NCBI GenBank assembly: GCA_038881895.1
Contig: JAVZOV010000001.1
Coordinates: forward strand, 372,001-436,000
Direction: 5' to 3'
Source: Thermoprotei archaeon
Lineage (GTDB): Archaea; Thermoproteota; Thermoprotei; Gearchaeales; WAQG01
Length of the DNA stretch: 64,000 nt
Every line of letters begins with the position of its first letter. Position 1 is the stretch's first letter. The position numbers were made by a program, and so were the translations under genes. Positions 19,371 to 28,386 of this stretch are shown here, piece by piece. The notes beneath the pieces are model-generated. The model was given only the letters and a program-made list of their open reading frames with translations, made no database searches and was not told where the DNA came from.

Positions 19371-19556
19371 ATGGAAGAAGAACTACTTAGACCAAAGGAT
19401 GTCGCAAAGAAGTTCGGTATCTCAGTTAAAACTCTCTGGAAGTGGCAAAGGAAAGGCATTATTAGAGCAGTTAAACTTCCAACTGGTAAGCTCCGCTACC
19501 CAAGGAGCGAGGTTAAGAGATTATGGAGGCAGTTAAAAGCTACAGGATCCCAGTAG
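19371..19556 (+). CDS. helix-turn-helix protein, recombinase-less TnpA
   Basis: 61 residues from ATG 19371. LLRPKDVAKKFGISVKTLWK continuing to WQRKGIIRAVKLPTGKLRYP is a MerR/IS607-type DNA-binding domain. It then ends after EVKRLWRQLKATGSQ, with the last residues overlapping the tnpB start by 34 bases. The full tnpA of the 48-kb element has a similar HTH plus a serine recombinase. So this is either a simple deletion product or a retained DNA-binding regulator of its own element. The longer upstream frame (to 19233) lies outside the element boundary and is ignored. Confidence 0.7.
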   Translation: MEEELLRPKDVAKKFGISVKTLWKWQRKGIIRAVKLPTGKLRYPRSEVKRLWRQLKATGSQ

Positions 19557-20677
19557 ATGTTCCAAAAGATTTAATCGAAGAATACTTCAAAGTTAAGCGG
19601 AAGGCTTTAGACGCAATATTCTCGCACGTTAAAATTTCCGAGAAGGCTCACCTCGAACTCGATAAGAAGGATAGGAAAAGACTTAGGGATGAATTGCTAC
19701 GGGAGTGGAAATACTCAAAGCATTACGTTGATTCAGCAATGAACTCCGTTATCGGATTGGTTAAGGGCTGGATAACCCTTTATAATAGGGGGAGGGCGAA
19801 TGAGCCTCCTAAGATAACTAAGAGGACAGTATATATTAAGAGCACGCTTTTCAGTTTCAGAAACGGCATACTGAAGATAAGCGTAGAGCCTAGTAAGCGG
19901 TATCTTGAGGTTGACTTAAGAAAGTGTTCGTGGATTCCGAGAGACTTTGATAAAGTCGGTGGACTACTTATGACTGAAAGTGAGCTGATAATTACGGTTA
20001 AGAAGAGGGTTGAGCTCAAGGCTGATGAGTGGGCATCATTTGACGTTAACTTAACGAACGTGACGGCGTTCATAGGTGGCGAGATTAAGCGCTATGACTT
20101 AAGAGAGCTCTACCACATCCACAGAACCTATGAAACTAAGCGGCAGAGGATACAAAAGTTATCTAAGATTAAGCCTCTAACCTCAAAGAGACTATTAGAG
20201 AAATACTCTAAGCGTGAGGGGAGTAGAGCCAAGGACTTCATGCACAAGTTAACCACGCAGGTTGCGGGGGAGCTCAAGGAGAAGGACTGCGGAGCAATAC
20301 TTGAAAACCTGAAAGGTATAAAGAGGCGAATCCTCAACAAGTCTAAAGACATGAACAGAAAGCTCTCAAAGTGGAGCGCAAGAGCATTCCAACTCATGCT
20401 TGAATACAAGCTTAAATGGCTTAACTTACCAGTAAAATACGTTAACCCAGCCAACTCATCTAAAACCTGCCCAGTCTGCCCAGGAAGCATGGCTTCCTAT
20501 CTGGGCAGGATAATGAAGTGCGAAGAATGCGGGTTAACAATGGATAGAGATATCATAGCGGTGTTGAACCTTCAGATGCGGGGAATTGGGTTCTCCCCGA
20601 GAGCCCTCAACAAATTAATCGAGAGGGAAGGGTTAAGTAGGAATAAAAGCAACAATTCACCATGCATTCCTACTTAA
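19523..20677 (+). CDS. tnpB: TnpB RNA-guided nuclease of IS607-like element
   Basis: 384 residues, full length. RuvC-I aspartate in SFDVNLTNVTAF (about 174), RuvC-II glutamate in AILENLKGIKRR (about 255), zinc finger CPVCPGSMASYLGRIMKCEE ending CG, and RuvC-III aspartate in MDRDIIAVLNL. All catalytic and zinc residues are present, so it is probably active as an omega-RNA-guided nuclease. The first zinc half reads CPVCP where CxxCG is usual. The stop codon is the last base triplet of a 12-bp hairpin, probably the 3' end of the guide RNA. A C-terminal fragment at 38893-39132 is a close relative. Confidence 0.93.
   Translation: MEAVKSYRIPVDVPKDLIEEYFKVKRKALDAIFSHVKISEKAHLELDKKDRKRLRDELLREWKYSKHYVDSAMNSVIGLVKGWITLYNRGRANEPPKITKRTVYIKSTLFSFRNGILKISVEPSKRYLEVDLRKCSWIPRDFDKVGGLLMTESELIITVKKRVELKADEWASFDVNLTNVTAFIGGEIKRYDLRELYHIHRTYETKRQRIQKLSKIKPLTSKRLLEKYSKREGSRAKDFMHKLTTQVAGELKEKDCGAILENLKGIKRRILNKSKDMNRKLSKWSARAFQLMLEYKLKWLNLPVKYVNPANSSKTCPVCPGSMASYLGRIMKCEECGLTMDRDIIAVLNLQMRGIGFSPRALNKLIEREGLSRNKSNNSPCIPT
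20633..20677 (+). other. 12-bp perfect hairpin over the tnpB stop codon
   Basis: TTAAGTAGGAAT (20633-20644) and ATTCCTACTTAA (20666-20677) form a perfect stem with a 21-nt loop; the TAA stop is in the second arm. The 46-kb element has a different-sequence hairpin (46868-46902) at the same place. Likely the guide-RNA 3' structure or recombinase end, given its conserved position. Confidence 0.65.
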
Positions 20678-20735: not shown

Positions 20736-21146
20736 TTATATTGTTATGAGTCTTTCTGCTAGCGGATGTCCTTTTACTCTGATTTCAAATATTTTGTTCC
20801 ATCCGAAGGGTGCTTGGTGAGATTCTATATTTTTTGATAATTCGTGGTGTAGTTTTTTAAGGATTGTTAGTGCTTCTGATGGTCTTTTTAGGTTGTTGCT
20901 GAGGTGTGCATAAGGATAAACGAGTACTCGTTTTGCACCAATTTCTTTTATAATTCTGTTTATCTCATTCATAGCGTTGGATAAGATTTCATCGGTGTCG
21001 TTGCTTTCCACGCATGTTAGAAGGAGTAATACTTCATCTATTTTGGTGGGTTTCTTTTCTACATCTTCAGCGGTTTTTATTTCTTTTGCAACAGGTTCAT
21101 AATATACGTAATCACAGTGTAGTGCTAGAATTCTCAAGTCAGGCAC
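20736..21146 (-). CDS. free-standing threonyl-tRNA synthetase editing domain
   Basis: 136 residues matching the archaeal N-terminal ThrRS editing domain (DTD-like fold) and nothing else. Markers: LRILALHCDYVYYEPV, the central VESNDTDEILSNAMNEI, AKRVLVYPYAHLS, and the end HQAPFGWNKIFEIRVKGHPL. It removes serine wrongly attached to tRNA-Thr. In some Crenarchaeota a separate ThrRS-ed protein works in trans with an editing-less synthetase; this short form fits that or a truncated gene. No ThrRS catalytic gene is in the window. Good ends and intact motifs argue for a functional protein. Confidence 0.85.
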   Translation of the reverse strand: MPDLRILALHCDYVYYEPVAKEIKTAEDVEKKPTKIDEVLLLLTCVESNDTDEILSNAMNEINRIIKEIGAKRVLVYPYAHLSNNLKRPSEALTILKKLHHELSKNIESHQAPFGWNKIFEIRVKGHPLAERLITI

Positions 21147-23800: not shown

Positions 23801-24730
23801 TCATCCTGCTTGTTGCATTTCTATTTCCTCTACTTTTTTTGCTATTTTCTTTATTTTTTCGATTAAGTTGATAGCATTTTTGTCAAAAATATATACTACT
23901 GATTCTATTCCAGCTCCACCAGGATCTATGATACCGTCTTCAATGTTTTCAAGTGTTTGTAAGAAGAGTTCTATACTGTCATATTTTGACCTGTTCATTG
24001 TTACGAATTGTAAACCTACTTGTTTCATAGCTTGTTCGATTGTTTTGTCATATTTTATGCATGTTGCAGCTCTAATTTCTGGGTTTATTTTTCTTGCTGC
24101 TAATAAAATTATACTCATGTGTCGTGATGCGCCGAACTCGGGTCTTGAGATTGCTGTTGCTCTTCCTTTCATAACTGTTATTCTTCCTGGAAACGCTGCC
24201 ACATCGTTAATATCCTTAGGCTCTTTAATGCACATGACTATGTTTGTTCGTACTTCCGGTATTAAACGGTCGAATCGGGAGTACACAGATAGTGTGGATA
24301 GGGCTCTATTGAGTTCATTCAATACTTCCATTCTTTCTGTGGATCCTCCTCCTAGGTTTATGAATGCTCTATGGCATGCACTACATCCTATGAGACCTGG
24401 TAGTGCATTTCTGTGTATTCTGCAGATGTCACCTTCAACTCTCATGATCATGCAGTGTGAGCAAACTTGTTCAACGAAGGTTTCTGGGCTTATTTTATTG
24501 TTCGCTATTCCATCAGCAAGTGTGGTTGATAAACGTTCGAGAAGTTCGATTGAAATGCTAGTTTCTTCCTTAATTATTCTTTTATATTTAGATGCTGCCG
24601 TCACTGATATTTCAAGTTTTTTAGCAGCTTCGCCGATACTCCAGTTATATTTTTCAACTAGATTGCGCACTATACGTGCTCTTAATTGAGGTAAGTATGT
24701 TCTGCCTACATACTCACACGGAGGACGCAT
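23801..24730 (-). CDS. thiR: ThiR: thiamine-responsive repressor, HTH-ThiN fusion
   Basis: 309 residues. N-terminal HTH (WSIGEAAKKLEISVTAASKY, about 31-50), a cysteine-bearing middle part (CSHCMIMRVEGDICRIH, GCSACHRAF) that may bind metal, and a C-terminal ThiN-type domain from about residue 135 (PEVRTNIVMCIKEPKDINDV, PEFGASRHMSIILLAARKINP). ThiR proteins use the ThiN domain to sense thiamine phosphate and repress thiamine genes. It is divergent from thiDN across an 18-bp palindrome that covers its own TATA box, which implies autoregulation. GGTGGGAT precedes the ATG at 24730. Confidence 0.9.
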   Translation of the reverse strand: MRPPCEYVGRTYLPQLRARIVRNLVEKYNWSIGEAAKKLEISVTAASKYKRIIKEETSISIELLERLSTTLADGIANNKISPETFVEQVCSHCMIMRVEGDICRIHRNALPGLIGCSACHRAFINLGGGSTERMEVLNELNRALSTLSVYSRFDRLIPEVRTNIVMCIKEPKDINDVAAFPGRITVMKGRATAISRPEFGASRHMSIILLAARKINPEIRAATCIKYDKTIEQAMKQVGLQFVTMNRSKYDSIELFLQTLENIEDGIIDPGGAGIESVVYIFDKNAINLIEKIKKIAKKVEEIEMQQAG

Positions 24731-24756: not shown

Positions 24757-24774
24757 ACATGTTTATAAACATGT
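24757..24774. promoter_or_regulatory. probable ThiR operator, perfect 18-bp palindrome
   Basis: ACATGTTTATAAACATGT lies between the divergent thiR and thiDN genes. Its centre TTTATAAA can serve as the thiR TATA box, and it directly adjoins TTTTATATAA, the likely thiDN TATA box (24775-24784). A dimeric regulator bound here would block both promoters. Assignment to ThiR is inferred from position and symmetry. Confidence 0.7.
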
Positions 24775-24836
24775 TTTATATAAAAAAATTGGTGTTGTAT
24801 GACGCTATATAAAAAAAGATTTAGAGGTGATGGAAT

Positions 24837-26201
24837 ATTAACTCTCATAAAGTACCGGTTGCGTTAACCATTGCCGGTAGTGATTCTGGTGGAGGAGCAG
24901 GTATTCAAGCTGATTTAAAAACGTTTGCGGCCTTGGGAGTTCATGGAACCTCCGCTATTACAGCTATTACAGCGCAAAATACTTATTCCGTGATTGGCGT
25001 TCAAGAAATAAGTACAGAGATTATCGAAAAACAAATTGATGCTGTAGCGCAGGATATGGGTATTGATGCTGCGAAAACTGGAATGTTAAGCAGCACACCG
25101 ATAATATTGGCTGTCTCTAAATCTGTTAGACGATATGCGTTTCCTTTGGTAGTTGATCCAGTAATGGTTGCCAAGAGTGGTGCTCAATTACTCAAGGATG
25201 ATGCTATTGAGACACTCATTAAGGAATTAATACCATTGGCTACAGTGGTAACTCCTAATACACCAGAGGTTGAAAAACTAATTGGAATAAAGGTAAAAGA
25301 TATAGATGATGCGAAAAAAGCTGCGAAAATGATTGTAAATAATTATGGGGCTAAAGCTTCAGTAGTAAAAGGTGGGCATTTGGACTGGGATGAAAGTGTT
25401 GATGTACTTTATTATGATGGAATATTTAAAGAGCTGAGAGCACCAAAAATCAATACGAAAAATACGCACGGGACTGGCTGTAGTTTTTCAGCTGCAATAG
25501 CTGCAGAGTTGGCTAAAGGAAACGATATAATAACTTCGGTTGAAATTGCAAAGCGTTTCATTACTAATGCAATATTTCATGGCCTATCAATTGGTAAAGG
25601 GCATGGCCCTGTAAATCCGATATCATGGTTATACGTTCCAGCTGAAAAATATAGAATAATTGAACAATTGAAAAATGCCATCATGATGCTTGAGAATGAT
25701 GAAAAAGTAGCAAATCTAATACCGGAAGTACAAACAAACTTAGTTATGGCTCTTCCGTATCCTTATGCTAAAAGTATAAGTGACGTTGCTGGCATACCAG
25801 GAAGGATAGTAAGGATAGGTAATCGTGTTAAAGCATCGGCACCACCTGAGTTTGGTGCATCATCACATGTTGCACGCGCTGTCCTTAAAGCTATGGAATA
25901 CGATAATAATATTAGAGCAGCGGCAAATATTAAATTTTCCGAGGAAATACTAGAAACTATAAAAAAGCTTGGTTTCACGATATCATTTTATGATCGAAGG
26001 GAAGAGCCGCCTGAAATAAAAATTAAAGAGGGCGCCACAATACCATGGGGAGTTGAACAAGCAATCAAAAGAGTTGGGAGAGTTCCAGATGCAATCTATG
26101 ATCCTGGTGATTTGGGAAAAGAGCCTGCAATAAAAATATTCGGAAAAGATGTAATAGATGTTGTAAATAAGATGATCGCTATTGCTCATTATGTAAGGTG
26201 A
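24837..26201 (+). CDS. thiDN: ThiDN: HMP-phosphate kinase / thiamine-phosphate synthase
   Basis: Bifunctional thiamine enzyme of about 454 residues. The ThiD ribokinase-like domain (VPVALTIAGSDSGGGAGIQA, KTGMLSS, VTPNTPEVEKL, GTGCSFSAAIAAELAKG) phosphorylates HMP-P; the ThiN domain (from about residue 280: PEVQTNLVMALPYPYAKSI, PPEFGASSHVARAV, IYDPGDLGKEPAI) joins HMP-PP and HET-P. No ATG, GTG or TTG lies upstream of the essential GSDSGGGAG motif in frame; the first such codon is past residue 30. GAGGTGA at 24824-24830 is well placed for an ATT codon at 24837, my preferred start. A frameshift from ATG 24830 is the alternative. Confidence 0.9.
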   Translation: MNSHKVPVALTIAGSDSGGGAGIQADLKTFAALGVHGTSAITAITAQNTYSVIGVQEISTEIIEKQIDAVAQDMGIDAAKTGMLSSTPIILAVSKSVRRYAFPLVVDPVMVAKSGAQLLKDDAIETLIKELIPLATVVTPNTPEVEKLIGIKVKDIDDAKKAAKMIVNNYGAKASVVKGGHLDWDESVDVLYYDGIFKELRAPKINTKNTHGTGCSFSAAIAAELAKGNDIITSVEIAKRFITNAIFHGLSIGKGHGPVNPISWLYVPAEKYRIIEQLKNAIMMLENDEKVANLIPEVQTNLVMALPYPYAKSISDVAGIPGRIVRIGNRVKASAPPEFGASSHVARAVLKAMEYDNNIRAAANIKFSEEILETIKKLGFTISFYDRREEPPEIKIKEGATIPWGVEQAIKRVGRVPDAIYDPGDLGKEPAIKIFGKDVIDVVNKMIAIAHYVR

Positions 26202-26206
26202 TGTTT

Positions 26207-27292
26207 ATGGGTGAATTGCCTAAACTTGGGAAGTTACCGCCTGATATTTTTGATGAGATAATTTATCCAAACCTAGGATCAACTGACCTAAGTGTTATCG
26301 TTGGTCCTAGGCATGGTGTTGATTTTGGTGTTGTTGAGTTAAATGAAAGAGAGGTTTTGATTATAAAAAGTGACCCAATTTTTGTTGTTCCTGAATATGG
26401 TTGGGATAGGAGTGCCTGGTTTGCGGTACATATACTTGCTAGTGATGTATCTAATTCTGGGGTTGCACCAAGATATTTAGCCATAGATCTCAACCTTCCT
26501 CAATCCATGACTAGAGATGAATTTACCAAGTTATGGTTAGGTATTCATAAAGAATGTAAGAGATTGGGCGTGTCAGTAGTTACTGGTCATACTGGTAAGT
26601 ATGCAGGGATTGATTATCCAATGATTGGTGGCGCTGCAATGTTTGCAATCGCTCCTAAAAATGGTTATGTTACGACTGAAATGGCTAAGCCTGGTGATAA
26701 AGTCATTATGACGAAAGGACCTGCTATTGAAGCTGCTGGAATATTGTCAGTAATGTTTCTAAGTTTCGTGGAAAAGCGATTTGGTAAGGATTTTGCCATG
26801 AAAGCTAGTAATATATTCTACTTACAAAGTGTTGTTGATGATGCTTTAACATTAGCGAAAGTGGGTTTAAGAACTGGTGTAACCTCTATGCATGATGCGA
26901 CAGAATACGGTGTTTGGGGCGCATTACATGATATAGTAGAGGCAAGCAAAGTAGGAATAAAAATATACAAGGATAAGCTTTTCATAAGGGATGACGTCAA
27001 AAAAATTATAGATGCATTTTCACAACTAACAGGCGTAAAAGCGGATCCGTATGCTGCAATAAGTGAAGGGACATTAATAGCAACAATAAAGCCATCAAAA
27101 GTTAATGAGGCATTAGAATTGTTAAGAAATAAAGGTATCGATGCACAAGTTATTGGTGAAATTACCGACGATAAGGGTAAGGTAACCCTCGTTACTGATA
27201 ATTATGAAGAAAAAATTTCGAGACCAGAGCAGGATCCTTTCTGGCCAATGTTCTTTAAGACTCTAGAAATCCTTGGTTCTCCTAAGAGGTGA
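26207..27292 (+). CDS. PurM/HypE-like ATP-binding protein in the thiamine operon
   Basis: 361 residues with the AIR-synthase/PurM fold: SDPIFVVPEYGWDRSAWFAV, ILASDVSNSGVAPRYLAIDL, GIHKECKRLGVSVVTGHTGK, GDKVIMTKGPAIEAAGIL. The superfamily includes PurM, HypE, SelD and ThiL. It follows thiDN with the start ATG 26207 placed by GGTGATG that overlaps the thiDN stop, and precedes thiW. Context suggests the thiamine-phosphate kinase step or another thiamine reaction, but it looks closer to the HypE-like group than to classic ThiL. Activity is an inference. Confidence 0.75.
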   Translation: MGELPKLGKLPPDIFDEIIYPNLGSTDLSVIVGPRHGVDFGVVELNEREVLIIKSDPIFVVPEYGWDRSAWFAVHILASDVSNSGVAPRYLAIDLNLPQSMTRDEFTKLWLGIHKECKRLGVSVVTGHTGKYAGIDYPMIGGAAMFAIAPKNGYVTTEMAKPGDKVIMTKGPAIEAAGILSVMFLSFVEKRFGKDFAMKASNIFYLQSVVDDALTLAKVGLRTGVTSMHDATEYGVWGALHDIVEASKVGIKIYKDKLFIRDDVKKIIDAFSQLTGVKADPYAAISEGTLIATIKPSKVNEALELLRNKGIDAQVIGEITDDKGKVTLVTDNYEEKISRPEQDPFWPMFFKTLEILGSPKR

Positions 27293-27296
27293 GAAA

Positions 27297-27842
27297 ATGT
27301 TTCTTCAAAATTCTAGAAAAAGAAGCATAGAAATTGCACTAGCTGCATTTTTTATAGCACTAGGGGTGGTGCTTTCACCATTCACTTGGTTTCAAGTAGG
27401 TCCAAGCAAAGCAAACCCCACGCAACACATGATAAATGTCATAGTTGGTATTATGTTAGGGCCTTTGTGGTCCATTGTAATAGCATTTTTTATTGGAATA
27501 ATTAGGATAAGCCTAGGGACAGGAACGATATTTGCTATACCAGGTGGGTTACCTGGGGGGTTCATTGTAGGGTTATTCTACCACTATTTATTCAAGCGAA
27601 TGTTTAAAGATCAAAAGAAGCTGATAGCGTCATTTACAGAACCAATAGGTACTGTTTTAATTGGTGCTACAGTCTCAATATACCTAGTTGCTCCATTAAT
27701 TAACACTAGAATTTCTAATTTAATAATTTTCTACATGGGCTGGCTAGCAAGCTCAGCGACTGGATCCGTAATAGGGTTTATCATATTAACGGTTCTATAC
27801 CGCACCGGTTATTCGAGGGAGAATATTCTTGGAAAACCTTAG
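27297..27842 (+). CDS. thiW: ThiW, substrate-binding membrane subunit of an ECF thiazole transporter
   Basis: 181 residues with about five membrane helices. SPFTWFQVGPSKANPTQHMI followed by NVIVGIMLGP and the TIFAIPGGLPGGFIVGLFYH segment are ThiW hallmarks; the family imports the thiazole precursor of thiamine. GAGGTGAGAAA positions the ATG at 27297; the frame itself opens at 27273 within the preceding gene. No general ECF ATPases or T component are in the window. Third gene in the operon after thiDN and the PurM-like gene. Confidence 0.88.
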   Translation: MFLQNSRKRSIEIALAAFFIALGVVLSPFTWFQVGPSKANPTQHMINVIVGIMLGPLWSIVIAFFIGIIRISLGTGTIFAIPGGLPGGFIVGLFYHYLFKRMFKDQKKLIASFTEPIGTVLIGATVSIYLVAPLINTRISNLIIFYMGWLASSATGSVIGFIILTVLYRTGYSRENILGKP

Positions 27843-28386
27843 GATCAGTGTTCATGATCTTTTGCACAAACGAACTCTAATAATAGGTGATATTGGAAAG
27901 GGAAAAACAAGAATTACTGCGCTGATCGTGAAACTCTTCATTGATATTGGTTTAAAAGAGAAGATCACAATAATTGATATGGCACCACCTCGCAGTGAAG
28001 CAATAGGGGGTAAAGTTTCTGAATATATAAATGTAAATTCTATCAGATATTTTCATGATGATAGAATAAGAGGACCTAGAATCTCTGCTAAAACATCAGA
28101 AGAACTTTTCTTAATAGCAGAAAAAAATAAAGATATTATAGAACAATTTTTAAACTATTATCTCAATGATCCAACAGAAATTTTAATAATGAACGACATC
28201 ACAATTTATCTTCACAAAGGCTCTGTATCAAGAATTATCCAATGCATAAATAAATCTAAAACATTTATAGGCAATGCTTATAGTGGTGTTAAACTTTACA
28301 AAGAGCAATTTAGAGATTTTGATATAAATGAGTCAAACAAACTGTCTGAAATAATAAAGATAATGGACAATATAATAAAACTATGA
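27829..28386 (+). CDS. P-loop NTPase-like protein ending the thiamine operon
   Basis: 185 residues. A Walker A motif GDIGKGKTR (about 20-28) follows a short N-terminal strand; ITIIDMAPP and ILIMNDITIYL are candidate strands, the latter near the Walker B position. Starts at TTG 27829, overlapping thiW by 14 bases, with GAGGGAG eight bases upstream. Small archaeal P-loop proteins of this sort have no known role to me. Its overlap with thiW suggests it belongs to the operon and may be tied to thiamine uptake or use, an inference from position only. Confidence 0.65.
   Translation: MENLRISVHDLLHKRTLIIGDIGKGKTRITALIVKLFIDIGLKEKITIIDMAPPRSEAIGGKVSEYINVNSIRYFHDDRIRGPRISAKTSEELFLIAEKNKDIIEQFLNYYLNDPTEILIMNDITIYLHKGSVSRIIQCINKSKTFIGNAYSGVKLYKEQFRDFDINESNKLSEIIKIMDNIIKL

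Follow-up and report, generated by a model that had tools for sequence, protein, structure and literature searches.

A candidate ThiR operator with ACATGT half-sites at thiamine salvage and transport genes of uncultured archaea

We believe that the perfect 18-bp palindrome ACATGTTTATAAACATGT (ACATGT-TTATAA-ACATGT; positions 24757-24774, with no strand assigned), found between the divergent genes thiR and thiDN in the window (the whole 64-kb stretch of DNA analysed here), is very probably an operator for the product of the adjacent thiR, and we refer to it as a candidate site. This reading draws on the recurrence of the word at thiamine promoters rather than on its symmetry. ThiR itself has been published: in archaea it is a regulator that carries a ThiN-like domain (Rodionov et al., 2017, J Bacteriol 199:e00743-16, and Hwang et al., 2017, J Bacteriol 199:e00810-16, as cited in PMC10746257, PMC9247456 and PMC8247775).

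The gene thiR (23801-24730, minus strand) encodes a protein of 309 residues with an N-terminal helix-turn-helix (HTH; MRPPCE...), a Cys/His-rich linker and a C-terminal ThiN-like ligand domain. On the plus strand, thiDN (24837-26201) encodes a ThiD-ThiN fusion, combining HMP/HMP-P kinase with thiamine-phosphate synthase. It is followed on the same strand by a gene for a thiL-like thiamine-phosphate kinase (26207-27292; AIRS fold, under the NCBIfam TIGR01379 cut-off), by thiW, the S component of a thiazole-precursor ECF transporter (27273-27842; Pfam PF09512, E=7.2e-43; TIGR02359 above cut-off), and by orf185 (27829-28386), the last gene of the operon, which encodes a small P-loop protein of RecA-like fold; consecutive genes in this series overlap or nearly overlap. 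The start codon of thiDN seems to be ATT (24837-24839), given that a TGA at 24828-24830 closes the frame, that a Shine-Dalgarno-like GAGGTGAT, read from the sequence at 24824-24831 on the plus strand, is well placed, and that the next in-frame ATG/GTG/TTG, a TTG at 24933, would cut off the conserved AGSDSGGGAGIQADLK segment; an assembly error is a possible alternative. In the relative G001, thiDN starts with TTG and thiR apparently with CTG.

The sequence-only reading had described a perfect 18-bp palindrome between thiR and thiDN, and both the repeat, exact at 24757-24774, and its flanking genes are as it stated. Each ACATGT box is itself self-complementary over 6 bp, such that the site can be read as an inverted repeat and equally as a direct one, with a step of 12 bp. 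Since first-order Markov simulations with the composition of the window give about 0.4 perfect palindromes of at least 18 bp per 64 kb, the symmetry of the 18-mer is by itself weak evidence. The only other perfect palindrome of at least 16 bp in the window is AAACGAGTACTCGTTT at 20918-20933. Within the window, ACATGTTTATAAACATGT has a single match at up to three mismatches, that is, the site itself.

The same reading had proposed a genome scan, in which a lack of other occurrences near thiamine genes would speak against it; a second site was found upstream of ykoEDC. Our scans combined pattern searches with family searches. At up to three mismatches the 18-mer occurs at seven places in the 1.75-Mb genome, just two of which have fewer than three mismatches, both at thiamine promoters. 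The exact pattern ACATGT-NN-AT-NN-ACATGT, of which the central AT was picked after the sites had been inspected, occurs twice against 0.02 expected from base composition, in each case at a thiamine operon. The second site is ACATGTATATAAACATGT (C1:561342-561359), at a distance of 55 nt upstream of the start codon of ykoE. This gene opens the operon of the classical HMP/thiamine ECF transporter YkoEDC, whose products are YkoE (PF09819), a double ABC ATPase and CbiQ. Family searches of the genome did not find ThiC, and a genome search for the Thi4 family returned just partial FAD-domain matches inside larger proteins; hence no de novo route to HMP was found in this genome. Its ThiN-domain proteins are ThiR and ThiDN, with no others. 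The two sites together thus cover every thiamine gene recognised, namely those for the salvage enzymes, for the uptake of thiazole and HMP, and for the regulator.

The 3-mismatch sites of the genome were also considered as members of the regulon and were rejected on inspection, being mostly TATA words in unrelated promoters. One of them (L007 1501-1518; G000 C4:21419-21436) immediately precedes split transketolase-like genes, recognised by eye as encoding a TPP enzyme, and is probably a chance match, as 3-mismatch matches are near background. Genes of TnpB-like transposons with Cys4 zinc motifs were seen by eye in the window (19523-20677, plus strand) and near ykoE (L008 1079-2903, minus strand), and one TnpB-like gene adjoins a serine-recombinase-like gene, forming an IS607-type pair.

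The position of the palindrome relative to the predicted promoters suggests how it might act. A possible TATA box for thiR, TTTATAAA (24762-24769, minus strand), occupies the centre of the palindrome and would give a start at about 24738, and a probable TATA box for thiDN, a perfect TTTATATA (24775-24782, plus strand), begins at the very next base after the palindrome, with a predicted start at about 24805 and a predicted leader of 31 nt that contains the Shine-Dalgarno-like element. Both boxes are predictions only, and as such they are compatible with the earlier proposal that the palindrome covers the thiR TATA box and touches that of thiDN. At the one-way promoter of ykoE, the centre of the palindrome reads TTTATATA in the direction of the gene. 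TTTATAAA is self-complementary and can therefore be read in both directions. In both L077 and L155, the two divergent start codons begin 30.5 nt from the palindrome centre, and the distance from TATA centre to start site is usually 27 nt. Due to this symmetric spacing, TTTATAAA would fit as a two-way TATA box shared by two genes with hardly any leader; a protein bound to ACATGT-N6-ACATGT would cover it. The symmetric geometry of these Brockarchaeota-type promoters also lends support to the earlier suggestion that one site could serve both divergent units.

Archaeal ThiRs reportedly recognise palindromes that are specific to their lineage and respond to thiamine phosphate as co-repressor. We propose that a ThiR dimer, with thiamine phosphate held in its catalytically idle ThiN domain, would bind ACATGT-N6-ACATGT and so cover the thiR core promoter and that of thiDN-thiL-thiW-orf185, where TBP and TFB could then not load. 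When thiamine phosphates are low, ThiR would be released and thiR, the thiDN operon and, through the second site, ykoEDC would all be expressed. That ThiR represses by occluding the promoters, with thiamine phosphate acting as the co-repressor, is in our view probable. The repressor sign is inferred, which leaves some room for ThiR as an activator, or as activator and repressor, instead of a plain repressor; however, we consider this unlikely, given that the site lies over or directly beside a predicted TATA box (in L174, the start region), at positions where repressors of archaea bind, and that transcriptional repressors of archaeal thiamine biosynthesis have been published, according to PMC8247775, citing Hwang et al., 2017.

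The domain composition of ThiR is consistent with a regulator of this kind. Its C-terminal ThiN-like domain matches Pfam PF10120 (E=6.6e-47), and the best PDB folds for its AlphaFold model are 2php and 2pb9. At the N-terminus none of the HTH models of Pfam reaches E=0.001; the AlphaFold model places helices at residues 4-27, 32-39, 43-47 and 49-54, mostly with high pLDDT, and the region aligns with other ThiRs. A methionine next to the active-site histidine is said to mark catalytic ThiN domains. In our alignment this column holds Met in the ThiDN of this genome and Arg in ThiR, which is without a ThiD domain. Between the HTH and ThiN domains, C90, C93, C103, H106, C116 and C119 (CxxC-N9-CxxH-N9-CxxC) are invariant in seven aligned ThiRs, and the linker (residues 90-119), in which the AlphaFold model is weak, is possibly a zinc site. 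These linker residues are partly missing in the ThiRs of Thermococcus.

Beyond this genome, the word recurs at orthologous promoters. A search of 61 genomes of the class for ACATGT-NN-AT-NN-ACATGT gave three exact sites, every one of them at thiamine genes; the third is in the thiR/thiDN divergent promoter of the other member of the family (WAQG01000182.1, labelled Candidatus Geoarchaeota). The recurrence is confirmed independently by two Brockarchaeota loci that had been fetched by the ThiR protein alone: L076 has the identical 18-mer in its thiR/thiDN intergenic region, and L077 has it in the region between thiC and thiDN. A genome search of L075, a record labelled Thaumarchaeota, gave a single exact 18-mer, again between thiC and thiDN. 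In genomes of related families the spacer is one base shorter: ACATGT-N5-ACATGT lies upstream of thiDN in G054 and G058, where the opposite flank holds a divergently oriented gene for an ABC ATPase, and in G050 it lies upstream of a gene for a cytosine/thiamine-type permease, followed by thiDN and thiW, with arms that extend to TTTTCACATGT...ACATGTGAAAA.

The form of the site follows the type of ThiR. Most other ThiRs for which a site can be recognised are of the ATAAC-N3-GTTAT type: among 51 thiR upstream regions, 27 contain this motif at up to one mismatch, against 1.04 in shuffles, and the ThiRs concerned mostly have a TQAAVSKY-like recognition helix; the recognition helix of the ACATGT group is S.TAA.KY or a close variant. 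In the ThiR tree, the five ACATGT-type ThiRs lie on one side of a branch with support 74, and a wider clade of ten rows, which includes G050, G054 and G058, has support 99; in two further members of that clade, G030 and G052, no operator site was identified. The link to the operator holds per ThiR clade and not per taxon, since within the same order family f2 differs in both ThiR type and motif. The ThiR of this genome is 50-54% identical to those of Brockarchaeota and of 'Thaumarchaeota SJ3.Bin70' and shares 44% identity with the ThiR of the other member of its own family, as could come from gene transfer or from uneven rates. A regulator other than ThiR, which also serves the thiamine genes, could be imagined to bind the site, as in two genomes thiR lies elsewhere (in L075 and L077 no ACATGT-type site was found upstream of thiR itself) and the link between ThiR and the 18-mer is drawn from sequence. 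However, the site adjoins thiR in three genomes, and ACATGT-type ThiRs share one side of a tree branch and a helix that differs from the one paired with ATAAC-N3-GTTAT. We therefore regard another regulator as very unlikely and retain ThiR as the protein that would bind.

The recurrence also has a well-defined spacing. Over 199 loci (0.98 Mb), ACATGT pairs were found at spacers of 5 or 6 only and at none other from 0 to 12, although some of these loci were fetched by the pattern, and part of the spacer-6 count is therefore due to selection. One ACATGT-N6-ACATGT, in G019 (L054), lacks the central AT and does not lie at a thiamine gene. In the 61 genomes the pattern with one mismatch is no commoner than a reversed control; its matches are thus at background, and weak sites cannot be called. 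An AT-rich promoter full of TATA-like words could have produced the palindrome by chance, as might be argued from the number of palindromes expected, from its TATA-like centre and from the TATA words that make up most 3-mismatch matches in the genome, but this is hardly credible, given that the conserved part is not the centre but the G+C-bearing ACATGT boxes, that exact recurrence at thiamine promoters extends to eight genomes, spacer-5 forms included, and that the presence of the very same 18-mer at orthologous promoters in distant archaea refutes it in practice.

Bacterial regulons under the TPP riboswitch (THI element) have the same target set. THI elements are found at thiC, thiD, thiW, ykoEDC and genes for cytX-type permeases. 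In contrast to those regulons, the system here would consist of a DNA operator and a protein. No Rfam family matches at the gathering threshold in L001, L008 or L020, and we therefore reject a TPP riboswitch at these loci.

The last gene of the thiDN operon deserves separate mention. In all 17 complete thiW loci of the 61 genomes, thiW is directly followed by a P-loop gene that encodes about 170-200 residues, and the same gene directly follows thiW in the Brockarchaeota locus L076. Full-length ThiM (PF02110, >280 bits) occurs in nine of the 61 genomes, none of which has thiW (Fisher p=0.047, uncorrected for kinship, with all nine ThiM genomes in one family), and a search of the present genome found no ThiM. 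The orf185 model (pLDDT 92.6) has a RecA-like domain, and its best PDB matches, with moderate TM-scores, include FlaH, thymidine kinase and corrinoid adenosyltransferase; at the sequence level, searches with this P-loop protein led to no informative family. As a partner of thiW, orf185 is a candidate thiazole kinase. That function is a plausible guess, and a role in energising ThiW or in regulation is also possible. A wider scenario, which we put forward only tentatively and hold to be somewhat unlikely as a whole, is that orf185 is a hydroxyethylthiazole kinase unrelated to ThiM, with which archaea lacking thiC and ThiM make thiamine from imported HMP and thiazole, and that it is an undescribed gene of a regulon governed by a ThiR clade whose operator is fused to a two-way TATA box. 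If true, such a kinase would fill a gap in thiazole salvage.

In common with the published archaeal ThiR regulons, the system described here has a regulator with HTH and ThiN-like domains, palindromic operators at thiamine biosynthesis and transport genes, autoregulation and repression, the last three of which are predicted here. It would differ from them in the half-site ACATGT, a spacer of 5-6 bp and another recognition helix, and it belongs to uncultured Geoarchaeota and Brockarchaeota. To our knowledge, neither lineage is in the published set of ThiR regulons. The ATAAC-N3-GTTAT sites of Thermococcales, families f5 and f2, and Asgard archaea likewise lie upstream of thiR and belong to an orthologous regulator, but they differ from the ACATGT type in half-site, in spacer and in the HTH, which reads TQAAVSKY or a close variant in place of S.TAA.KY. 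Since ThiR regulons are already known, we believe that the ACATGT site would be a lineage-specific operator variant, new in its half-site, spacer, lineage and apparent fusion of operator and TATA box.

Together, these observations provide a testable vitamin B1 regulon of two operons, for salvage enzymes and for HMP and thiazole transporters, in an uncultured archaeal lineage and in a genome without ThiC. As operator and recognition helix change together between ThiR clades, these clades form a natural set for mapping helix residues to bases. Finally, the suggested sharing of bases between the operator and a bidirectional TATA box would allow the compact silencing of two divergent genes by one bound protein.
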